Shown in pieces: positions 1,693-54,371 of a stretch of 64,000 bases of DNA (position 1 is the first letter of the stretch; each line of letters opens with the position of its first letter). The position numbers were made by a program, and so were the translations under genes. Origin of the DNA: Kordia algicida OT-1 (GTDB lineage: Bacteria > Bacteroidota > Bacteroidia > Flavobacteriales > Flavobacteriaceae); contig NZ_DS544873.1 in assembly GCF_000154725.1 (NCBI RefSeq), forward strand, positions 1,154,758-1,218,757. The letters are read 5' to 3'. The notes beneath the pieces are model-generated. The model saw only the letters and a list, made by a program, of their open reading frames with translations, searched no databases and was not told the origin of the DNA.

Positions 1693-1823
1693 GATATTAA
1701 TTTTAGTAATTATCCTTACTCTATTTCAGGTTTTTCAGGGAACACCTTTGTATGTTGTAAATACGATACATTTTATAGTAAGAGAAGAAAGATAGTTTTA
1801 ACAATTTGCGAATATCTAATTAT

Positions 1824-1862
1824 CAAAAAGGCTCCAGATGTATATCGTGAAGCCTTCTCTTT
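1824..1862 (-). terminator. Hairpin terminator downstream of peptide copy B
   Basis: Read on the minus strand, GAAGGCT pairs with AGCCTTTTT across a 17-base loop and ends in a T run. It lies about 70 bases after the stop of the gene at 1935-2126. Confidence 0.55.
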
Positions 1863-1934
1863 CCCTTAAATATGTCAGTCAAAAGAATGACCATATTTTA
1901 CTTAATAAAATGCTTTTAAAAAAAAAGGTTTGAA

Positions 1935-2126
1935 TTAAATATCGCTACCACATGTGTATACTTGCGGACAAGCCATAAACCATGGGCAATATTTAGGACC
2001 CGTTACGCGTCCTGCGCAATCACATCCACATTTAGATAAATCATATCCAGCTCCACCATTAATTTGGCTTTGTTGCTCTTTTGAAATCGCAGCAACACCT
2101 TTAATGTTTAAAATGTTTTTTTTCAT
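1935..2126 (-). CDS. GG-leader Cys-rich small peptide (63 aa), copy B
   Basis: This is a paralogue of the peptide at 1483-1692. The leader (MKKNILNIKG, then ISKEQQSQINGG) and the core blocks LSKCGCDCAGRVTGP and ACPQVYTC are conserved, including all six cysteines, while the linker between GG and the core and the C-terminal tail differ. Variation is therefore concentrated outside the cysteine framework, as in families of secreted small peptides. The two copies are transcribed in the same direction but are separated by about 240 bases containing a terminator, so each probably has its own promoter. Confidence 0.78.
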   Translation of the reverse strand: MKKNILNIKGVAAISKEQQSQINGGAGYDLSKCGCDCAGRVTGPKYCPWFMACPQVYTCGSDI

Positions 2127-2255
2127 AATGATAAGTTTTTTACAGTTAATAATTGTGATATAAATAATATAAGCCGCTCACAATTTTCCAACATAAAATT
2201 AAGTTGACTCACAGCCAAAAAAAAACACTTGTCTTTCTATTTTAAAAAACTAATC

Positions 2256-2278
2256 TGTTCAATTTATAAAACAGCAAG
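2256..2278 (+). repeat. Direct repeat, right copy
   Basis: Matches 1117-1139 in 22 of 23 positions and in the same orientation; see the left copy. Confidence 0.6.
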
Positions 2279-2322
2279 GGTAAATTCACTAAAAACAATA
2301 GTCGTAAAACTTAGAAGTATTC

Positions 2323-2330
2323 TATATTTG
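2323..2330 (+). promoter_or_regulatory. Flavobacterial -7 promoter box for the MATE gene
   Basis: TATATTTG matches the Bacteroidota -7 consensus TAnnTTTG and lies 19 bases before the GTG start at 2350. No clear TTG -33 element is seen at the expected spacing. Confidence 0.5.
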
Positions 2331-2349
2331 CCACGTTAAATACAAATCA

Positions 2350-3741
2350 GTGCTCTTACAGAACTACACCAAGGAATTTGCGTATAATTTTAAACTTGCT
2401 TCGCCGATCATTTTAGGAATGTTGGGACATACTTTTGTGAGTTTTGTTGACAATGCCATGGTGGGACAATTAGGAACGGCAGAACTTGCCGCCGTTTCTT
2501 TGGGAAATAGTTTTTTGTTCATAGCCATGTCTCTTGGAATCGGATTCTCTACAGCAATTACCACTTTGGTCGCAGAAGCTGATGCCGAAGGAAACAAAGC
2601 AAAAGTAAAAAGCGCGTTGAAACACGGTTTAATTCTCTGTACGATTATCGGAATCGCGGTATTTTTGGGTGTCATGCTTGCAAAACCATTAATGTATAAA
2701 ATGGATCAGCCAGATGAAGTTGTCGAACTTGCCATGCCATATTTAAACTTGGTAGCAGCTTCGTTGATTCCATTGATAATGTTTCAAGCGTTTAAGCAAT
2801 TTGCTGACGGATTATCACAAACAAAATACGCCATGTGGGCAACATTATTGGCAAATGTGGTAAACATTACCATCAATTATTTCTTAATTTTCGGTATATG
2901 GATTTTTCCAAAATGGGGAATCATTGGTGCAGCTATTGGAACGTTAGCATCGCGAATTGTCATGTTAGCTTTTTTATGGTTATTACTACGATACAAGAAA
3001 AAATTCAAGCAATACGTTACCAACTTTAATTTTAAGAAAATACAGAAATCGGTCTTTAAAAAAATCATTTCGCTTGGATTTCCGTCATCGTTACAAATGT
3101 TGTTTGAAGTAGCCATTTTTACGGCGGCTATTTGGTTATCTGGTATTTTAGGAAAGAACTCTCAAGCGGCAAATCAAATTGCGTTAAACCTATCGTCAAT
3201 GACGTTTATGGTGGCGATGGGACTAAGTGTTGCGGCAACAATCAGAGTAGGAAATCAGAAAGGTTTGAAACGTTTCTCAGAATTGCGCCGTATTGCATTG
3301 TCACTATTTCTTTTAGTATTTATAATAGATGTGTTTTTTGCGATTATGTTTATGTTATTGAATAGTTGGTTTCCAACATTATACGTCAACGAAACTGATC
3401 TTGTCAACTTCGTAGACAATCAAGAAGTAATTATGATTGCAGCAGAACTTTTATTAGTTTCTGCATTTTTCCAAATTTCCGATGGCATACAAGTCGTTGG
3501 TTTAGGCGTTTTACGAGGTTTACAAGACGTGAAAATTCCAACAATCATTACCTTTTTTGCTTATTGGATTGTTGGTTTTCCCATCTCGTTCTATCTCGGT
3601 TTATATACAACATACAAAAGCGCAGGCATCTGGATTGGTTTACTCGCAGGGTTGACGACTTCTGCAATATTATTGTATATTAGATTCAATTATTTATCAA
3701 AAAAACTTATTAATAAGCAAACAGTTCATGGAGTTTCCTAA
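2350..3741 (+). CDS. MATE family multidrug/cation antiporter
   Basis: A 463-residue polytopic membrane protein with about 12 hydrophobic segments and the MATE hallmarks near the N-terminus (GHTFVSFVDNAMVGQLG, then ELAAVSLGN) and a second MatE half starting near residue 235. Family members export organic cations or drugs in exchange for Na+ or H+; the substrate here is unknown. The start is GTG: no ATG lies in frame between the promoter box at 2323 and the first membrane segment. The 3' end overlaps the next gene by 14 bases, suggesting co-transcription and coupled translation. Confidence 0.9.
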   Translation: MLLQNYTKEFAYNFKLASPIILGMLGHTFVSFVDNAMVGQLGTAELAAVSLGNSFLFIAMSLGIGFSTAITTLVAEADAEGNKAKVKSALKHGLILCTIIGIAVFLGVMLAKPLMYKMDQPDEVVELAMPYLNLVAASLIPLIMFQAFKQFADGLSQTKYAMWATLLANVVNITINYFLIFGIWIFPKWGIIGAAIGTLASRIVMLAFLWLLLRYKKKFKQYVTNFNFKKIQKSVFKKIISLGFPSSLQMLFEVAIFTAAIWLSGILGKNSQAANQIALNLSSMTFMVAMGLSVAATIRVGNQKGLKRFSELRRIALSLFLLVFIIDVFFAIMFMLLNSWFPTLYVNETDLVNFVDNQEVIMIAAELLLVSAFFQISDGIQVVGLGVLRGLQDVKIPTIITFFAYWIVGFPISFYLGLYTTYKSAGIWIGLLAGLTTSAILLYIRFNYLSKKLINKQTVHGVS

Positions 3742-3955
3742 ATTTTTACTAGGCGATAATACCGATTATCCTAATGCGATTTTTATCGTACATACCGAAT
3801 TCCCAAGATTCATCATCAATCTAGAAAATGATGAAGTAGAATGGTTGGAAGAATTTGACAAAGAAGATGAAAAAGAACTTTCTTCCGAAGCTGAAAACTT
3901 ATTTCAAGCAGCAAACGATTTTTACGATCGTGAGTTGGCTCGTTACGAAGATTAA
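3728..3955 (+). CDS. Small acidic conserved protein of unknown function (75 aa)
   Basis: The protein is very acidic in its second half (EWLEEFDKEDEKELSSEAE) and has no signal peptide or membrane segment, so it is probably cytosolic. Its start overlaps the MATE gene by 14 bases and it is followed 9 bases later by the PAP2 gene, so the three form one operon. I do not recognise a named domain. Codon use matches the neighbours and the tight packing supports it as real. Confidence 0.75.
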   Translation: MEFPKFLLGDNTDYPNAIFIVHTEFPRFIINLENDEVEWLEEFDKEDEKELSSEAENLFQAANDFYDRELARYED

Positions 3956-3964
3956 TCCTTTCTT

Positions 3965-4534
3965 ATGATCGATCAATTAGTAAACTACGACAAAGAATTA
4001 TTTTTATTCTTAAACGGACTCGGAACAGAAACTTGGGATGGCTTTTGGATGTTTATCACCAATAAATATTACGCCATTCCGTTGTATGCTTTCTTGTTGA
4101 TTCTCATCTTAAAAACACACAAAAAGAAAGAAATATTCTTCACGTTAGTATTGGTGGCGCTATTAATTACAATTACCGATCAAACGGCAAATCTGTTCAA
4201 AAAAACACTCTTTTTACGTCCAAGACCTTGTCATACTGCCGATTTGATAGCGCACATGCGTTTGGTAAAATCGTATTGTGGAGGACAATTTGGCTACTTT
4301 TCTGGTCATGCTTCAAACGCAATGGCTTTGGCAACATTTATAGGTTTGGTTTTACAAAAACATTACAAATACCTCATTTTTATACTACTATTTTGGGCAG
4401 CATTAGTTGGCTATAGCCGAATTTACATAGGAGTTCATTTTCCAGGTGATGTCTTCACAGGAATGATTGTCGGCGGCATCTATGGAGGAATAATTTTTAA
4501 ACTGCGACAATTTTTGATTCGGAAATATGCGTAG
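3965..4534 (+). CDS. Membrane phosphatase, PAP2 family
   Basis: A 189-residue membrane protein with the three catalytic motifs of type 2 phosphatidic acid phosphatases: KKTLFLRPRP (motif 1), YFSGHASNAMA (motif 2, with FSGH instead of the usual PSGH) and SRIYIGVHFPGDV (motif 3). The family removes phosphate from lipid phosphates such as undecaprenyl pyrophosphate or phosphatidylglycerol phosphate at the outer face of the inner membrane. The exact substrate is not determined by these motifs. Last gene of the MATE operon. Confidence 0.88.
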   Translation: MIDQLVNYDKELFLFLNGLGTETWDGFWMFITNKYYAIPLYAFLLILILKTHKKKEIFFTLVLVALLITITDQTANLFKKTLFLRPRPCHTADLIAHMRLVKSYCGGQFGYFSGHASNAMALATFIGLVLQKHYKYLIFILLFWAALVGYSRIYIGVHFPGDVFTGMIVGGIYGGIIFKLRQFLIRKYA

Positions 4535-15244: not shown

Positions 15245-15910
15245 TTAACCTCTTGGTGGTGGTGGACTCAATTGTCCATCATTGAAAGATAAACTCGTTC
15301 CATTTCCATTTTTAGGACTTGATTTTTGAACCATATTCTCTTTTGATTCTTTATGTCCTAAATCGTTATTTGCCATAAATGCACGTTCAATAGGATTGTG
15401 TTCATCCAATAGTAAATCAGCAATAATTTTATAACGTCCAACAATCGGATCACTTGAATTTTTAGGTTGTATATAGAAAGGTAAGTTTTTCATATTTGAA
15501 TAATCTTCATCTAAACTTGTTTCTATAGTCGGATTGAAGAAAACTGTTTGTTGTTTGGTATATTCTGGATGATTTTGATATGCGCCAAAATACACACGAA
15601 CTCCTGAAATTCTAGGATTATTCGGATTCTTTTTTTCTACCGTTTCTAAATAATTTATATATGATTTGATTCTGTCAAATTCAAACCATACAAATTGAGT
15701 TTCCTTTGAATTAATCGCACTACTTAACAGTGGATATTTTTCATTGACAAAGGTTTCATGTAAATTCACAGCATCACTCACAGGAATAATTCCGTTTGGA
15801 GGTTCTTCTTGATGACCATTTCCATGGTCGTTTGATAATTTTTTGCAGAGTAAATACCCAATTACGATACCTACCAATAAGGCAACAATAATAAGCAATA
15901 CATTTTCCAT
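15245..15910 (-). CDS. Membrane-anchored protein with LSPPP tail, one repeat module
   Basis: A 221-residue protein with an N-terminal membrane anchor (LLIIVALLVGIVIGYLLCKK). Residues about 45-130 form one copy of the module also found twice in each of the next two upstream genes: 'VSDAVNLHE', 'FVWFEFDRIKSYINYLE', 'ISGVRVYFGAYQ', 'TVFFNPT'. The C-terminus reads SLSFNDGQLSPPPPRG, matching the tails of those proteins. No catalytic motif is visible. It is 24 bases upstream of the membrane protein gene at 14564-15220, so it may be co-transcribed with the two-component genes. Confidence 0.72.
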   Translation of the reverse strand: MENVLLIIVALLVGIVIGYLLCKKLSNDHGNGHQEEPPNGIIPVSDAVNLHETFVNEKYPLLSSAINSKETQFVWFEFDRIKSYINYLETVEKKNPNNPRISGVRVYFGAYQNHPEYTKQQTVFFNPTIETSLDEDYSNMKNLPFYIQPKNSSDPIVGRYKIIADLLLDEHNPIERAFMANNDLGHKESKENMVQKSSPKNGNGTSLSFNDGQLSPPPPRG

Positions 15911-16146
15911 AAGGTTGTAGTTTTTGTTAGTCTTTATTTTTATGCTAAAATCTGATAAACTTTTCAGAAAAAAAATTTGAAATTAAAAAATGGGTGTTTT
16001 TCCCTTTTAGAAAAAAGTGGTTAAATTATAATTTATGAGAAAATAACTACAAATGTATGGATTGTTGGAAATTATGTATAAATGGTAAAGAAGAAAGTGA
16101 ATTTTGTAAAGTGTTGTAAAATAGAATAGGCTCGGAGGAAGATTTA

Positions 16147-17079
16147 TTAGTTGTTTTTGGGTGGTGGTGATAGTTGTCCTTCGTTAAAGGTTAAACTCTC
16201 ATTTTCTTCATCAGAAGAAGTTTCTTTAGTATAAAAGTTATTTTGTGTAAATGACTGTAGCGTAACTTTCTTTGTATTTATAATTGACTGCTTTTGATTG
16301 CTTGCAACCAAAAACACTGTTTGCGCATTGGATTTCAATTCCAAATCAGCATTCGTATCATATACACCAAAAAAGACATCGATTCCCGTAATTTTTAAAT
16401 CGAATTCATTAGACCTTTTCTGAATGTAGCTCATATAACATTTGATTTCATCCAAAGAATACCAAACCGCTTTGGTATAAAATTCTTTAGCTACTTTAGA
16501 TGCAAATGGTTGAATATATTGCATTTCAAACCTATTAAATAATATACTTGCTTCATTAAATGATATATAGCCATCTGTAGAAAGTATCAAGTTTTCATCA
16601 TTTATTGAACTTTCTCTTACATGTACAGTTTTTTGAATATGCTTAAAAGTTAAAAACTGTCCATTTTCTATGGTAAACGATTCTTGATAATCTAACTTGG
16701 CATTTCTTGTAGAAGGCATTAAAAATGTAGTTCTATTTCCCTCATTACTAACACCAAAAATAAAATTAACACCTGTAATAGGGATGTTTCTAGCAATAGC
16801 AATTGCTTCCAAATGTTCTATATAATCTGTTAGTTTGGCTAAACCAAAATGAATGGCTTTGTCTTTAAAAGAGATTTTCTCTTTTCCAATCTTGGAAAGG
16901 CGAGTGTTGTGATCGTTTTGGAAAAGTACAGCAGCGTCAGCATTGGAAATAATTTTTTCAGGTATTTCAATTGCGGTGTCAAGTTGCTGTTCTTCGTCTT
17001 GATGATTTGTTTCACAACTTAGGAAGAATGTCATACACACCAATCCTAGAGAAACAAATGAAAACATTTTTTTCTTCAT
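16147..17079 (-). CDS. Lipoprotein with two repeat modules and LSPPP tail
   Basis: A 310-residue lipoprotein: signal peptide with lipobox (CMTFFLSC). The first module (about residues 45-125) contains 'ISNADAAVLFQND', 'KAIHFGLAKLTDYIEHLE', 'ITGVNFIFG' and 'TTFLMPS'; the second (about 170-260) contains 'ISFNEASILFNRF', 'KAVWYSLDEIKCYMSYI', 'ITGIDVFFGVYDT' and 'TVFLVAS'. The tail is SLTFNEGQLSPPPKNN. It is a close paralogue of the protein at 17358-18281. The function is unknown; a structural or ligand-binding role at the outer membrane is a guess. Confidence 0.75.
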   Translation of the reverse strand: MKKKMFSFVSLGLVCMTFFLSCETNHQDEEQQLDTAIEIPEKIISNADAAVLFQNDHNTRLSKIGKEKISFKDKAIHFGLAKLTDYIEHLEAIAIARNIPITGVNFIFGVSNEGNRTTFLMPSTRNAKLDYQESFTIENGQFLTFKHIQKTVHVRESSINDENLILSTDGYISFNEASILFNRFEMQYIQPFASKVAKEFYTKAVWYSLDEIKCYMSYIQKRSNEFDLKITGIDVFFGVYDTNADLELKSNAQTVFLVASNQKQSIINTKKVTLQSFTQNNFYTKETSSDEENESLTFNEGQLSPPPKNN

Positions 17080-17319
17080 CTTTTTAGTTTTACGTTTTTT
17101 AAATAATTGAACTTTAATTACGGCTAATCAATTGTATAAGTTCAAGAACAATGTGAGCGCATCATACTAAAAATGCAACATTGTATTCTTTAAAATTCGC
17201 GACTTGGAGTGTAATTACAATTTTAAAAGTAAGAAAAAGATGCTTTCAAAGAATGGAAGTTGTATGACTGTCATTCTTTTATGTATAACTGTCAGTTTTA
17301 CTAAAAAAATGTTAAAAAA

Positions 17320-17346
17320 TAAACCGATAAGTTTACTCATCGGTTA
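17320..17346 (-). terminator. Hairpin terminator
   Basis: AACCGAT and ATCGGTT pair around a 10-base loop with T-rich sequence following on the minus strand. It sits just after the stop of the gene at 17358-18281. Confidence 0.7.
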
Positions 17347-17357
17347 TTTATTCGTTA

Positions 17358-18281
17358 TCAATCCTTTTTTGGAGGCGGTGGAGAAAGGTGTCCAAAATTA
17401 TAAGCTAAACTCCCTTCATCATTTTCTTTAGCCAAAAAGTCTTCTTGAGTCAAACGCTGCAATGTTTTTCCAGAAACATTCACAATAGTTTGATGTTGCG
17501 TGCTTGCTGTCAGAAATACCGTTTGTGTATTTGATTTTAATTCTAAACTTGCATCAGTATCATACACGCCAAAAAATACATCAATTCCTGTAATGGCTAA
17601 ATTATGTTTATTAGATTTTTTCTTTAGATAATTGATATAGTCTGTGAATTCGTCTAACGAATACCAAACCGCTTTGGTGTAATAGTTTTTGGTTACTTTC
17701 TTTGCAAATGGTTCAATATATTGTGTTTGATAGTTGTTAAACATTACAACTGCTTCATTGTATGAAAGATATCCATTTGGAGAAAGTACTAAATCTTCGT
17801 TGTTTTGCGAATTTTTTTGTGGATTTAATGATGTAACTACATGCTTGAATGTTAGAAATTGTCCATTTTCAATCGTAAATGATTCTTGATAATCTAAGTT
17901 AGCATTTCGGGTAGAAGGCATTAAGAAAACCGTTCTTTTTCCATCAGCATCAGCTCCAAATACAAAACTTGCTCCTGTGATTGGAATGTTTTTAGAAGTC
18001 GCTAATCTTTCTAATCGGTTAATGTATGCTTCTAAGGTTGCCAAATCAAAATGAATGGCTTTGTCTTCAAAACGTGTGGTTGACTTCCCAATTTGCGACA
18101 AACGTGTATTTTGATCGTTCTTAAATAATGTTGCAGCTTGCGCGTTAGAAATAATTTTTTCAGGCGTTTCTAGAGCAGTTTCTAGTTGTTCTTCTGCTGC
18201 TTGATTTTTAGTTTCGCAACTAAGGAAAAATGTAGCACATACAAGTCCCAAAGAAGCAAATGAAATGATTCTTTTCTTCAT
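17358..18281 (-). CDS. Lipoprotein with two repeat modules and LSPPP tail, paralogue
   Basis: A 307-residue lipoprotein (lipobox ATFFLSC) closely related to the protein at 16147-17079 over its whole length. Module 1 includes 'ISNAQAATLFKND' and 'ITGASFVFGADADGK'; module 2 includes 'LSYNEAVVMFNNY', 'KAVWYSLDEFTDYINYL' and 'ITGIDVFFGVYDTDA'. The tail is SLAYNFGHLSPPPPKKD. Both lipoproteins have separate upstream regions of about 280 bases or less, and this copy has its own terminator, so they may be separately expressed. Confidence 0.75.
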   Translation of the reverse strand: MKKRIISFASLGLVCATFFLSCETKNQAAEEQLETALETPEKIISNAQAATLFKNDQNTRLSQIGKSTTRFEDKAIHFDLATLEAYINRLERLATSKNIPITGASFVFGADADGKRTVFLMPSTRNANLDYQESFTIENGQFLTFKHVVTSLNPQKNSQNNEDLVLSPNGYLSYNEAVVMFNNYQTQYIEPFAKKVTKNYYTKAVWYSLDEFTDYINYLKKKSNKHNLAITGIDVFFGVYDTDASLELKSNTQTVFLTASTQHQTIVNVSGKTLQRLTQEDFLAKENDEGSLAYNFGHLSPPPPKKD

Positions 18282-40217: not shown

Positions 40218-40640
40218 TTACTGTTGGTATGCTTCAAAAGTTCCATCAGTATAAAAAATAACAATCTTGTCAATGGTTTTTCCTTTTGATGAAACTTGTG
40301 TTGGAATAGTGGAAGTTACTTTTTCTTCCAAAGGCAATGATTGCTGATTGGTCGTCTGTGCAATTTTTGGTGTTGCGATTGGAGTTACAGCAGAAACATT
40401 TTCGGAAGCTGTCAATTTTGGAAAACTACCTTTTCCATTCAACAACCAATACACTTCTACCTCTGGAAAATTGTGTAAAATTTTCATGACAAACTCCAAA
40501 CTCGGTTTGTTTCTTCCTGATAAAATATGTGAAATACTAGAACGCTGAACGCCTAATTTATCGGAGAAAGCTGAAGCAGATAAATCGTAATATTCTAGGA
40601 TTTTTTTTAATCTTTTGGTAAAATCGGCTGTGTTTATCAT
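40218..40640 (-). CDS. XRE family transcriptional regulator
   Basis: A 140-residue regulator with an N-terminal Cro/C1-type HTH (LSASAFSDKLGVQRSSISHI, then LSGRNKPSLEFVMKIL) followed by a short segment with YWLLNGKGSFPK and a flexible Ser/Thr/Pro-rich tail. The start codon sits inside the palindrome TGTTTATCATTGTAAACA, one of six related sites between this gene and the divergent carboxypeptidase gene. Autorepression is therefore likely. Confidence 0.88.
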   Translation of the reverse strand: MINTADFTKRLKKILEYYDLSASAFSDKLGVQRSSISHILSGRNKPSLEFVMKILHNFPEVEVYWLLNGKGSFPKLTASENVSAVTPIATPKIAQTTNQQSLPLEEKVTSTIPTQVSSKGKTIDKIVIFYTDGTFEAYQQ

Positions 40641-50417: not shown

Positions 50418-50804
50418 TTAATCGATTCTATTGATTGTCTGAATAATCGCTGTGCTATCGCAATTATATACTGTCAACTCGATTTCTTTGTTGCGAAGCA
50501 TTCCTTCAATAATATATAACTTACAAGAATCTACTTTTGTTTTACTTCTTGAAAAATCTACATCTCCATATTGAAGAATGTTTGAAATTTCGGCGGTGTC
50601 AATTTCTTTATTATCAATCAATTGACGTATTTGAGGAGAAAACATACGGTTCTTAATTCGGATATTCTTTAAGGTACGCGCATTCGGTAAATAATCAAAT
50701 TCACATTGTACGCCACGACCACGAATTAAGAAGGCAAAAATGACCAATCCGATGGCAACGCCACCTAAATAAAATCCAATACGTCTTAAAAGACCACTAT
50801 TCAT
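50418..50804 (-). CDS. Small membrane-anchored protein (128 aa)
   Basis: One N-terminal membrane helix (IGFYLGGVAIGLVIFAFLIR) is followed by a soluble domain with YLPNARTLKNIRIKNRMFSP and three cysteines (CEFDYL, SCKLYI, NCDSTA). Its start is one base from the stop of the alanine dehydrogenase gene upstream, so the two are co-transcribed. A conserved flavobacterial protein without known function. Confidence 0.72.
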   Translation of the reverse strand: MNSGLLRRIGFYLGGVAIGLVIFAFLIRGRGVQCEFDYLPNARTLKNIRIKNRMFSPQIRQLIDNKEIDTAEISNILQYGDVDFSRSKTKVDSCKLYIIEGMLRNKEIELTVYNCDSTAIIQTINRID

Positions 50805-52062: not shown

Positions 52063-52608
52063 CTATTTATTTTCTTCTAGCATTTCTTTTTCTTTTCGTT
52101 CGTATTCAGCGAGTTCGGCATCTATTTTTTGAAGATCGATATTGTACACGTATTTATCAAATAGTTTTAGTCTAATCAAATAAACAATTGGTACTATAAT
52201 CATCATTACTGGAAGAATGTAATAAATTGCTTTAGTATCAACTAATGTATCTTCAATTACTGCACTAATTAATTGAAAGATATACATAGCAATCGGAATT
52301 AAAATTACATGATACCACCAGTCTCTACAGGTGAAAAACCACAATGTCAAAAGAATTAGAGGAACGATTTTACCCAAATAGACCCACATAGCTGTACTTA
52401 CATCTTCATAGTAATTACTTCTCAATGTAAAAAACGAAGTTTCCCAAGTTGGTGATTCTGGGAAACCTTCGTATAAATAAAATATATATGGTGATATAGC
52501 AATAATTATTGCTACTATGCTACTAAAAAAAAGTTTTTTACCCGTTAGACGGGATTTTGATTTTGTCTCTTTTTTGACTTTGTTCTGTTTCGTATGGATT
52601 GTCTTCAT
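52063..52608 (-). CDS. Four-helix membrane protein with charged tail, tandem copy 1
   Basis: The ATG at 52608 (MKTIHTKQNKVKKET) lies inside the lipoprotein gene 52538-52690 in another frame (71-base overlap); no other ATG is available before the first helix. Four membrane segments (LFFSSIVAIIIAISPYIFYL, MWVYLGKIVPLILLTLWFF, WWYHVILIPIAMYIFQLIS, YILPVMMIIVPIVYLIRL) are followed by a cytoplasmic coiled tail IDLQKIDAELAEYERKEKE. It is about 181 residues and paralogous to the proteins at 52877 and 53676. No known family recognised. Confidence 0.75.
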   Translation of the reverse strand: MKTIHTKQNKVKKETKSKSRLTGKKLFFSSIVAIIIAISPYIFYLYEGFPESPTWETSFFTLRSNYYEDVSTAMWVYLGKIVPLILLTLWFFTCRDWWYHVILIPIAMYIFQLISAVIEDTLVDTKAIYYILPVMMIIVPIVYLIRLKLFDKYVYNIDLQKIDAELAEYERKEKEMLEENK

Positions 52609-52690
52609 CAGCAATACTGTCTGGGTTACAAGATACAAATAATATTGTTGAAAAAGCGGCTAGTAAGTAAAAGTAAAATTTAGTTTTCAT
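52538..52690 (-). CDS. Small lipoprotein (50 aa), tandem copy 1
   Basis: The frame starts at ATG 52690 and encodes a signal peptide with lipobox, MKTKFYFYLLAAFSTILFVS then C21, followed by NPDSIADEDNPYETEQSQKR and a short basic end. The N-P-D-S-I-A-D-E-D-N-P-Y block is conserved in three tandem copies. It is probably a short outer-membrane or inner-membrane lipopeptide. The downstream membrane protein starts within it in another frame. Confidence 0.72.
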   Translation of the reverse strand: MKTKFYFYLLAAFSTILFVSCNPDSIADEDNPYETEQSQKRDKIKIPSNG

Positions 52691-52723
52691 CTGAATAATT
52701 AGGTATTTAGTTTAACGATGAAG

Positions 52724-52731
52724 CAAACTTA
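52724..52731 (-). promoter_or_regulatory. -7 promoter box of cassette copy 1
   Basis: On the minus strand TAAGTTTG fits TAnnTTTG, 34 bases before the lipoprotein ATG. The same box is present at the same place in the other two cassettes. Confidence 0.6.
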
Positions 52732-52773
52732 TGTAATAACCAACTAATTATCAGAAAATTAGGTATATAAATT

Positions 52774-52822
52774 TTCTACGTACTTTTGCTAGTTTTGGGT
52801 ATAACTAACAAAAGTCGTAGAA
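52774..52822. promoter_or_regulatory. Inverted repeat TTCTACGTA..., upstream of cassette 1
   Basis: TTCTACGTACTTTTG (52774-52788) is mirrored by CAAAAGTCGTAGAA (52809-52822), one base shorter. It lies between cassette 2 and the promoter of cassette 1 and could be an operator or an RNA hairpin. Confidence 0.6.
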
Positions 52823-52876
52823 TTTGGTATTTTATGTATTTTTTACGTAAGTATTTTCGCGAATATACGTAATTAA

Positions 52877-53431
52877 TTAAACTTCTATTTTGTTTTCAGC
52901 TTCTTTTTCCTTTCGCTCGTATTCATCGAGTTCAGCTTCTATTTTCTTTAAATCGATGCCTAATACAAGTTTATCAAATAGTTTTAATCTTATTAAATAA
53001 ACTATTGGTGTTAATATCAGCATCACAATCAATACCCAAAATATTTCATTCTCATCAATAAATTTAGCCTCTTTATTTAATGAACTAAATAATTGAAAAG
53101 CATACATAGTTATGGGGATTAATATTATATGATACCACCAGTGTTTACATGTTATGAACCAAAACATTAATAAATAAAGCGGAACAAATTTACTTACATA
53201 TATCCATACTGCAATAAATGTATTTGAAAACCCATTTTTGGTAATGATAAAAAAACCAGTATCCCAAGTATCTTCAGTTGGAACTATGAGATACAAATAT
53301 GCTATAAATGGAGATATTGCAATAAAAAAAATTACTATACTATGTAGAATTAATTTTTTTCTAGCTAACGTCTGTTGTTTTAATTTTTGATTTATCAACT
53401 CCTTGTTCTGTTTCGTATGGGTTGTCTTCAT
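52877..53431 (-). CDS. Four-helix membrane protein with charged tail, tandem copy 2
   Basis: The ATG at 53431 (MKTTHTKQNKELINQKLKQQ) is inside the lipoprotein gene 53361-53513 in another frame (71-base overlap). The protein (184 residues) has the same four membrane segments as copy 1, including CKHWWYHIILIPITMYAFQL and 'VMLILTPIVYLIRLKLFDKL', and the tail GIDLKKIEAELDEYERKEKE. The WWYH(V/I)ILIPI motif is the most conserved part of the family. Function unknown. Confidence 0.75.
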   Translation of the reverse strand: MKTTHTKQNKELINQKLKQQTLARKKLILHSIVIFFIAISPFIAYLYLIVPTEDTWDTGFFIITKNGFSNTFIAVWIYVSKFVPLYLLMFWFITCKHWWYHIILIPITMYAFQLFSSLNKEAKFIDENEIFWVLIVMLILTPIVYLIRLKLFDKLVLGIDLKKIEAELDEYERKEKEAENKIEV

Positions 53432-53513
53432 CAGCAATGCTATCTGGATTACAAGATACAAATAAAATTGATGATACGGCTGCTAATAGGTAAAGGTAGA
53501 ATTTAGTCTTCAT
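53361..53513 (-). CDS. Small lipoprotein (50 aa), tandem copy 2
   Basis: Signal peptide MKTKFYLYLLAAVSSILFVS with lipid-accepting C21, followed by NPDSIADEDNPYETEQGVDK and a short tail ending in TTDVS. Nearly identical to copy 1 up to the end of the overlap with the membrane protein frame, after which the sequences diverge. Confidence 0.72.
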   Translation of the reverse strand: MKTKFYLYLLAAVSSILFVSCNPDSIADEDNPYETEQGVDKSKIKTTDVS

Positions 53514-53545
53514 TTTAATTTAGATTATTTAGTTTAACGATGAGT

Positions 53546-53553
53546 CAAACTTA
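53546..53553 (-). promoter_or_regulatory. -7 promoter box of cassette copy 2
   Basis: TAAGTTTG on the minus strand, 33 bases before the lipoprotein ATG. Confidence 0.6.
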
Positions 53554-53591
53554 TTGAATAACCAACTATTACCTTTAAAAAAAGCATAATA

Positions 53592-53648
53592 TATTTTCTA
53601 CGTATTTTTGTCAGTTTTGCCTAAAATGAACCAAATACGTAGAAAATA
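53592..53648. promoter_or_regulatory. Inverted repeat TATTTTCTACGTATTT..., upstream of cassette 2
   Basis: TATTTTCTACGTATTTTTG (53592-53610) is mirrored by CCAAATACGTAGAAAATA (53631-53648), with arms of about 16 bases. Related arms lie upstream of cassettes 1 and 3. Confidence 0.68.
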
Positions 53649-53675
53649 GTATATTATTTTATTTCAATGAACTTA

Positions 53676-54257
53676 TTATTCTTGTGTTGTTAAATTTTGT
53701 TGTTCTTTTTCTTTACGTTCATATTCTTCTAATTCTGCATCTATCTTTTTTAAATCTATTCCATGTACCAATTTGTCCATGAGTTTTATTCTAATTAAAT
53801 AGACAAAAGGAATGATAATCATCATCACAGGGATTAACCAATATATCTCCACAACGTCAAGAATACTTGATTTGTCATTTATAGCCGTAAATAATTGAAA
53901 TCCAAACATAAACATTGGGATTAAAATTACGTGATACCACCATTTACTGCAGGTAAAAAACCAAATTATCATTAATAATAACGGAATTGCCTTGTTTAAA
54001 GATATCCAAACTAATATTTGTACATCATCATATTCTCGCTTATCAATTGAAAAAAAAGGAGTATTCCATTCTTCTGTTTGAGGAACATATTCATACAATT
54101 GAAATAAATATGGCGTTATAGCTATTATAACAACTATTATTGTATTGAAAATGATACTTTTTCTATACGATGCTTTATGAGTTAACTTGCCCTGGTATTT
54201 TAACTTTCCTCTTGTCGATTCCTTGTTCTGTTTGGTATGGGTTATCTTCGTCTGCAA
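53676..54257 (-). CDS. Four-helix membrane protein with charged tail, tandem copy 3
   Basis: This copy has the same domain plan (four membrane segments, CSKWWYHVILIPMFMFGFQL, tail GIDLKKIDAELEEYERKEKE) but no ATG in its frame before the first helix. Where copies 1 and 2 have ATG (MKT...) it has ACG; the nearest conventional candidate is TTG at 54257, with another TTG at 54281. It overlaps the lipoprotein gene at 54175-54333 by about 80 bases. Expression could rely on TTG, on reinitiation or on frameshifting from the lipoprotein frame. Confidence 0.7.
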   Translation of the reverse strand: MQTKITHTKQNKESTRGKLKYQGKLTHKASYRKSIIFNTIIVVIIAITPYLFQLYEYVPQTEEWNTPFFSIDKREYDDVQILVWISLNKAIPLLLMIIWFFTCSKWWYHVILIPMFMFGFQLFTAINDKSSILDVVEIYWLIPVMMIIIPFVYLIRIKLMDKLVHGIDLKKIDAELEEYERKEKEQQNLTTQE

Positions 54258-54333
54258 TGCTATCTGGGTTACAAGACACAAATGTTACTGATGCAAATAC
54301 AACTGCTGCGAATAAATAATTTCTTAATTTCAT
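54175..54333 (-). CDS. Small lipoprotein (52 aa), tandem copy 3
   Basis: Signal peptide MKLRNYLFAAVVFASVTFVS with lipid-accepting C21, then NPDSIADEDNPYQTEQGIDK and RKVKIPGQVNS. The N-terminus differs from copies 1 and 2 but the NPDSIADEDNPY block is identical in protein, even though some codons differ (GACGAAGAT against GATGAAGAC); those silent changes are what remove the ATG of the overlapping frame. Confidence 0.72.
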   Translation of the reverse strand: MKLRNYLFAAVVFASVTFVSCNPDSIADEDNPYQTEQGIDKRKVKIPGQVNS

Positions 54334-54363: not shown

Positions 54364-54371
54364 CAAACTTA
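54364..54371 (-). promoter_or_regulatory. -7 promoter box of cassette copy 3
   Basis: TAAGTTTG on the minus strand, 31 bases before the lipoprotein ATG. Further upstream TATTTTCTACGTATTTTTAT (54411-54430) repeats one arm of the inverted repeats seen before cassettes 1 and 2. Confidence 0.6.

Follow-up and report, generated by a model that had tools for sequence, protein, structure and literature searches.

The 64,000-nucleotide window of Kordia algicida OT-1 analysed here (contig NZ_DS544873.1, positions 1,154,758 to 1,218,757 of the forward strand) contains three tandem cassettes, A, B and C, on its minus strand at positions 52063-54333, each comprising a small lipopeptide gene and a gene for a polytopic membrane protein (Mem) that is predicted to start within the lipopeptide gene in frame +1. 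All three cassettes were found in each of the nine Kordia genomes examined. Comparative sequence analysis indicates that each cassette is probably a cognate pair of an exported peptide and its membrane partner acting in trans, and dual coding of the peptide and Mem where their genes overlap is supported by tests at the codon level.

The tests for dual coding compared clades of 68 and 61 rows, delimited on a tree built solely from the Mem core (which starts shortly ahead of the first helix and lies outside the overlap), with expected values obtained by redrawing synonymous codons with the clades' own usage. In the overlap clade, where the peptide lies upstream in 66/68 rows, 65 of 66 peptide genes contain an in-frame ATG from which the frame runs open into Mem, against 35.4 expected, and frame +1 is open across the last 59 nucleotides (nt) in 58/66 against 26.3 expected; in the separated clade the same counts are 0/61 against 0.2 and 17 against 20.2; the rows are related, so that the expected counts are not independent draws, which weighs against taking the excess at face value, and the control clade is related likewise. 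The Asp column of the peptide that makes the Mem start contains GAT 42 times and GAC never, compared with 277 GAT and 108 GAC among the Asp codons of the same Mem genes and 4 GAT and 30 GAC in the Asp column of the peptide tail. When codons are redrawn in the N-terminal part of Mem, the probability that the peptide frame stays open averages 0.076 (87 class rows). Earlier tests, partly circular as their classes were defined by the overlap itself, had given an open frame +1 in 80/87 rows against 33.9 expected and a value of 0.02 for the Asp column.

In the window, lipopeptide genes A (54175..54333), B (53361..53513) and C (52538..52690), all on the minus strand, encode 52, 50 and 50 amino acids (aa), respectively, reading MKLRNYLF...FVSCNPDSIADEDNPYQTEQGIDKRKVKIPGQVNS in A, ...GVDKSKIKTTDVS in B and ...QKRDKIKIPSNG in C. 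Each product has a signal sequence, a lipobox-like FVSC, the block NPDSIADEDNPY and a basic tail, and gene A has orthologues in 9/9 Kordia genomes. The accompanying Mem genes, on the same strand, are A (53676..54257, 193 aa with a TTG start), B (52877..53431, 184 aa, with its ATG at 53431 within lipopeptide gene B) and C (52063..52608, 181 aa, with its ATG at 52608 within lipopeptide gene C). The out-of-frame overlaps are 83 nt for A (54175..54257, assuming the TTG start) and 71 nt each for B (53361..53431) and C (52538..52608). Copy A has ACG where B and C have ATG, its nearest in-frame start being the TTG at 54257, shortly upstream; both the ACG and the TTG are kept in 9/9 Kordia genomes. 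In none of the three copies is there an ATG, GTG or TTG from the peptide stop to the first hydrophobic segment, and the overlap would therefore be required for Mem translation. A promoter-like box, TAAGTTTG, was identified by eye upstream of each copy (minus strand; 54364-54371 for A, 53546-53553 for B and 52724-52731 for C). The boxes of B and C are present in all nine Kordia genomes and that of A in eight, with TATGTTTG in L038; the Bacteroidota -7 promoter consensus is TAnnTTTG.

Most of what the initial annotation had proposed for this locus stands, namely the tandem cassettes themselves, lipoproteins of 50-52 residues sharing a conserved block, overlaps of 71 to about 83 bases, a Mem start forced into the lipoprotein gene and a promoter box repeated with every copy. 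Its four Mem helices are clear-cut for copy C and only plausible for the other two, as a 19-residue hydropathy scan gave four separate segments in C, three in B and three to four in A. The proposed WWYH(V/I)ILIPI motif holds as WWYH[VI]ILIP in all three proteins, the residue that follows being I in B and C and M in A.

The pair is not special to the three copies: the copy B query matched (E <= 0.001) in 213/299 genomes of the family Flavobacteriaceae, and 62 named Mem loci came from the GTDB species collection. The pairing analysis covered 181 distinct Mem rows from 163 loci, drawn from part of the matches listed among the 213 genomes, with within-genome copies included and identical Mem cores counted once. 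Two-domain homologues, the outside-family locus L126 and matches located at the ends of contigs or listed with stops inside them (G062, G205, G211) were excluded, and 25 of 27 Kordia Mem genes passed the filters. A small exported peptide is encoded upstream of Mem in 179 of the 181 rows, downstream in one (genome G219, locus L246, a single case, with three repeats) and was not found in the stretch fetched in one. The peptide gene contains the Mem ATG in 86 rows, and only a TTG in 10 (nine of them Kordia copy A), and in 4 rows there are ATGs both within it and after it; 78 rows are separated, with a gap of 18-526 nt, and 3 lack an automatically assigned peptide, although at one of these (L161) an overlapping peptide outside the motif is present.

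All in-overlap ATGs lie in frame +1 (107/107), the most frequent overlap is 59 nt (39/87 rows) and 84/87 overlaps are 47-89 nt long. Over 178 rows the overlap state changes five times on the tree with corrected labels; initial labels gave three changes against about 57 in shuffles. Judged from these comparisons, the overlap is old and constrained where present and is not needed for function, because no peptide was found at L206 and the peptide lies downstream of Mem at L246. The pairing bears out the functional two-gene unit envisaged in the initial annotation, and the codon tests its claim that dual coding is kept. The pair proved to be nearly always adjacent (179/181) but not always overlapping, given the 78 separated rows, and the occurrence of one partner without the other, which had been named as a possible refutation, tells against a need for overlap and leaves the constraint on it intact.

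The constant parts of the peptide among relatives are the export signal and a C-terminal unit, [IV][DE][KR]-x-[KRE]-[IV], often followed by xxP; peptides of the overlap clade mostly end in PxxG. The strict triplet [VI][DE][KR] occurs within the last 20 residues in 122 of the 178 automatically paired rows (50/75 overlap rows outside Kordia, 14/25 Kordia rows and 58/78 separated rows). As a control, only 4 of 502 genes of the K. algicida genome have an upstream candidate of <=80 aa bearing the triplet in its last 25 residues, none of the four with a lipobox. The looser script rule used for choosing peptides fires on 125/502 control genes, so that the 19 of 178 peptides failing even the loose motif were also read by eye and were judged to be members. 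The peptide had been described as a lipoprotein, which is true of many members and not of all: the lipobox pattern fits 114/178 paired rows and changes about 15 times on the tree, and the 64 rows outside it include some in which the script took an upstream ATG and others that look signal peptidase I-like.

The C-terminal unit is tandemly repeated within the peptide in 28/78 separated rows, with six repeats in L089, and in 0/100 overlap rows. Whole peptide genes are also multiplied, with six in tandem before one Mem in L014 and four, plus one partly masked, in L019. Other repeats occur in the peptides of L009 (FIDKFQKPPKHG, six times) and L006 (IDKKDV(V/I)VPPNG, twice), where the unit differs among lineages and is uniform inside one gene. 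A peptide-profile search of the 33 genomes without a listed Mem match gave five weak matches; the motif is missing from the two that were read (L245 and L247), and the other three cover only model positions 1-32, the signal part.

A second membrane family, MemII, is encoded in the same arrangement. A peptide-profile search of 40 genomes led to a lipopeptide at 477 kb of the K. algicida genome that overlaps another membrane protein, relatives of which were found at 20 loci in 14/249 genomes of the family, five of them in K. algicida. Nineteen of these loci were found through the membrane protein without use of the peptide, and one through its peptide. A lipopeptide gene (43-72 aa) overlaps the MemII start in frame +1 at all 20 loci, the nearest ATGs giving short overlaps of 11-35 nt at L276 and L279, and frame +1 is open over 59 nt in 20/20 against 11.3 expected. 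At L268 and L272 the MemII matches are listed with one internal stop, and the open reading frames used there are uninterrupted. Read by eye, 18 of the 20 peptides carry [DE]K in the tail. Any relation between MemII and Mem would be at best remote, the two profiles matching weakly in hhalign (probability 64.8%, E 6.2e-5, 109 columns), while the Mem-type and MemII-type peptide profiles match at 98.4% (E 4.7e-15), partly via the signal sequence. In 800 kb sampled evenly from the K. algicida genome (16%) there were two ATG-started lipopeptide overlaps, neither with a transmembrane segment, and no further ATG-started cassette of the same design; the eight cassettes of this genome are therefore not a genome-wide annotation habit.

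A helix-turn-helix-like protein with a WLL-G-G-M motif was observed beside the Kordia MemII cassettes L283-L286, L289 and L254. Such a protein stands beside 7/20 MemII loci, six of which seeded the model, and 19/53 long Mem loci, and is only a lead. Pfam clearly supports a helix-turn-helix only for the relative at 40218 in the window; similar proteins occur near two-domain Mem relatives and in G591 (L126).

An alignment search found Mem in 1/295 genomes of the class, which is the K. algicida genome itself, 10/196 genomes of the order, including two outside the family (G591 and G604), and 8/247 genomes of the phylum, all listed as the same family or as the genome itself; listed members of one large genus (g128) gave no match. 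The gene order porX-tsaE-peptide-Mem-ald holds in the loci read, and in the window the cassettes are flanked by tsaE and a porX-like gene on one side and alanine dehydrogenase (ald) on the other. Some genera (L043, L046, L073, L083 and others) carry duplicated, two-domain Mem relatives of about 290-420 aa on the opposite strand in the interval from porX to tsaE, occasionally as two or three successive genes and with no peptide by the filter. The matches at G211:C16:270514-271029 and G205:C1:1264723-1265193 contain internal stops and are possibly decaying copies.

The proposal that Mem belongs to no known family agrees with the searches of Pfam, NCBIfam, PADLOC, PHROGs, PDB sequences and Rfam, which yielded neither an above-cut-off nor a convincing match for Mem, MemII or the peptides. 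The 21 families that 69 Mem members match weakly (best E 0.0027) do not include AgrB, a membrane peptidase with catalytic His and Cys. Mem has one invariant His and a nearly invariant Cys, which are no evidence of a peptidase. Identity with Lgt was considered and rejected, as 10/69 members match NF000780 only weakly (best E 3.7e-5) and copy C scores 22.1 bits against a cut-off of 547; the K. algicida genome has one Lgt (197.7 bits), located elsewhere.

Within Kordia, Mem is less conserved in protein sequence than its neighbours. Between the nine genomes alanine dehydrogenase is 93% and PorX 95% identical, against 64%, 62% and 68% for Mem A, B and C, and the peptides are 94-98% identical over residues 1-33 and 49-55% in their tails. 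Four-fold sites differ to a similar extent in ald (0.53) and in Mem (0.50-0.63). Mem copies partly recombine, copy A of L037 being closest to copy C of L036. In the peptide genes the synonymous difference is 0.09-0.17 for codons 2-20, 0.00-0.04 for codons 21-26, which immediately precede the Mem start, and 0.00-0.11 for codons 27-33, whereas porX and ald show 0.38-0.40 overall and 0.24-0.30 across their first 33 codons. Identity over the 130 nt upstream of the peptide genes is 83-86%, compared with 72% upstream of porX and 84% in the 50 nt that precede ald, so that the region upstream of the cassettes is not exceptional. No leader RNA structure was found in Kordia, where mononucleotide shuffles fold more strongly than the leader itself (mean z of the leader +0.65 to +1.15); this fits an open initiation region and does not explain all of the constraint.

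The peptide, then, would consist of a signal sequence with a lipobox or signal peptidase I-like end, an acidic linker and a basic C-terminal unit, [IV][DE]K-x-[KE]-[IV], often with xxP, and Mem would be its dedicated polytopic partner. The combination expected of a peptide signal and its receptor, a small peptide with a dedicated membrane partner, is present, export being predicted from the signal sequences. The mature peptide would lie at the outer face of a membrane or be released, and its basic unit could bind short loops of Mem as a ligand or regulatory subunit, with repeats of the unit raising dose or avidity. The overlap would place both products under one promoter, and a Mem start codon made from a peptide Asp codon would tie Mem initiation to translation of the peptide. 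Several observations weigh against this picture of a cognate pair. Mem is intact at L206 with no peptide in the 1.8 kb fetched, and the outside-family relatives in G591 and G604 have none by the filter, so that Mem has a function apart from the peptide. Some lineages have a degenerate C-terminal unit, as in the 19/178 peptides outside the loose pattern, and the contrast in repeats between separated and overlap rows is not significant once relatedness is respected (two independent supported contrasts). Copy A lacks an ATG start for Mem, and the fast divergence of Mem in Kordia may as well reflect relaxed constraint as diversifying selection.

Among the alternatives, the one that survives best is that the peptide serves constitutively in a membrane complex, as a small subunit or tether, without carrying a signal. 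The housekeeping genes tsaE and ald adjoin the locus in the loci read, the overlap state clusters on the tree, and the strong synonymous constraint in the 5' half of the Kordia peptide gene could mark an abundant product. This reading is nevertheless unlikely, as the repeated changes in lipobox state imply that the peptide can do without a lipid tether, a fixed subunit would hardly be expected to show lineage-specific tandem repeats or multiplied genes, and Mem persists without a peptide at L206.

An exported peptide toxin or bacteriocin from which Mem protects the producer is a less probable explanation still. A small exported peptide with a dedicated polytopic partner would suit such a pair, as would the multiplied and partly recombining Kordia cassettes and the fast divergence of Mem, but PADLOC matched none of eight proteins to any known defence family, the locus is the same across the genera read rather than mobile, one Mem stands without a peptide, and the 33 genomes without a listed Mem match yielded only the five weak peptide-profile matches, the two read lacking the motif.

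There is little to recommend a cis-acting leader, in which the peptide, by being translated or exported, would control Mem translation in the manner of SecM or CutF. The upstream position, the export signal, the conserved C-terminal segment, the overlap and the conserved 5' region all resemble a leader, and CutF-like genes likewise lie upstream of an envelope gene and sometimes overlap it (PMC9973294). The cassette peptide differs in that it can be downstream, multiplied or repeated and often has a lipobox. Because of the one reversed order (G219, where the function of the downstream copy is putative), the series of six peptide genes that precedes a single Mem in L014 and the internal repeats, the peptide would act as a product rather than as a leader; the lipobox pattern in 114/178 rows, the low structure of the Kordia leader and the intact Mem without a detected peptide at L206, which does not agree with action only from upstream in cis, point the same way.

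That the overlap is spurious, with Mem starting after the peptide gene or the peptide frame untranslated, is scarcely credible: copy A lacks an ATG and in 11/86 overlap rows a GTG or TTG follows the peptide stop codon, but the other 75 have no ATG, GTG or TTG between that stop and the first helix, and both the core-defined resampling with the Asp codon test and the scarcity of chance overlaps in 800 kb speak against it.

Further small lipoproteins were observed before TPR protein genes. At L282 (G000:C1:1362500-1367500) a lipoprotein gene (1715-1885, plus strand) is followed by a TPR protein gene (2002-3999, plus strand), and at L282, L287 and L288 acidic lipoproteins of 51-61 aa are encoded 75-117 nt before TPR proteins of 646-672 aa, which are followed by response-regulator-like genes. 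The combination of kinase and TPR domains comes from a Pfam test of L282 only; the L287 and L288 peptides have a D-x-LY stretch like that of the cassette peptides. Small lipopeptides before TPR histidine kinases may hint at a larger envelope peptide-signalling system. Tentatively, the cassettes could be one branch of it, forming undescribed dual-coded peptide modules of Flavobacteriaceae in which a polytopic receptor, started from an Asp codon of the peptide, is coupled to an exported (lipo)peptide bearing [IV]DK-x-[KE]-[IV]-x-x-P at its C-terminus, with at least two receptor families (Mem and MemII, together eight cassettes in this Kordia genome).

The cassettes have partial counterparts among known systems. 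The Rz/Rz1 spanins of phages consist of a small lipoprotein and an inner-membrane protein whose genes overlap on the same strand in different frames. The out-of-frame overlap of a small lipoprotein gene and a membrane protein gene is shared with them, but in Rz/Rz1 the membrane protein comes first and here the lipopeptide does; the Rz/Rz1 membrane protein has one N-terminal helix and a periplasmic coiled coil, unlike the several hydrophobic segments of Mem; and Rz/Rz1 belong to a lysis cassette, whereas porX, tsaE and ald are the neighbours here, with no lysis genes among them. AgrD/AgrB and ComX/ComP are peptide precursors with dedicated membrane partners, and resemble the cassettes in that the gene for a tiny exported peptide lies next to, or overlaps, that for a polytopic membrane protein; they differ in that Pfam finds no AgrB or kinase domain in Mem and that the cassette has no response regulator. 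Compared with codirectional overlaps generally, which are likewise out-of-frame and on the same strand and, according to a survey of 58 species, have a mean of 26 bp and a modal length of 4 (PMC2174442), those of the cassettes mostly measure 47-89 nt and keep one phase across tens of genera. No description of the peptide/Mem pair was found among the papers listed in searches of the open-access literature, and the peptide name 'zobellin' did not occur there. A Flavobacterium colony-spreading gene pair (PMC9950754) and colony-spreading lipoproteins (PMC7807042) were also considered, and the available parts of these two sources gave no link.

Other features of the window lie near the cassettes or elsewhere. 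Inverted repeats separate cassettes A and B (TTTTCTACGTA...TACGTAGAAAA, 53585..53660, fold -20.8 kcal/mol, largely conserved in Kordia) and cassettes B and C (52765..52838, -23.9 kcal/mol), the one between A and B being a candidate terminator or operator; a 20-base inverted-repeat pattern with <=3 mismatches occurs five times in the genome, four of them at cassettes, against four for the backward control. A DUF4258-like protein is encoded at 50418-50804 on the minus strand (22.7 bits against a Pfam cut-off of 25, with one N-terminal hydrophobic segment), and is also found downstream of ald in the relatives read. Three adjoining genes at 15245-18281, minus strand, have products ending alike (GQLSPPPP, GQLSPPPK and GHLSPPPP). 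The open reading frame at 42-1109 is the end of a 559-aa protein (L281, 2688-4367, plus strand) whose N-terminus resembles that of a lipoprotein and whose end looks AraC-like by eye; in L281 the filter passed no small lipopeptide upstream of its gene.

Long out-of-frame overlaps between cellular genes are easily suspected of being annotation errors. The cassette overlap keeps a single frame across tens of genera, has codon-level evidence and follows a design that recurs with a second membrane family. With a start codon apparently drawn from an Asp codon of the upstream gene, it offers a natural system for how overlapping genes arise, and it exposes a widespread peptide/membrane pair in flavobacteria, many of them marine. 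Should the peptide be a signal, synthetic peptide would allow sensing by these bacteria to be tested directly.

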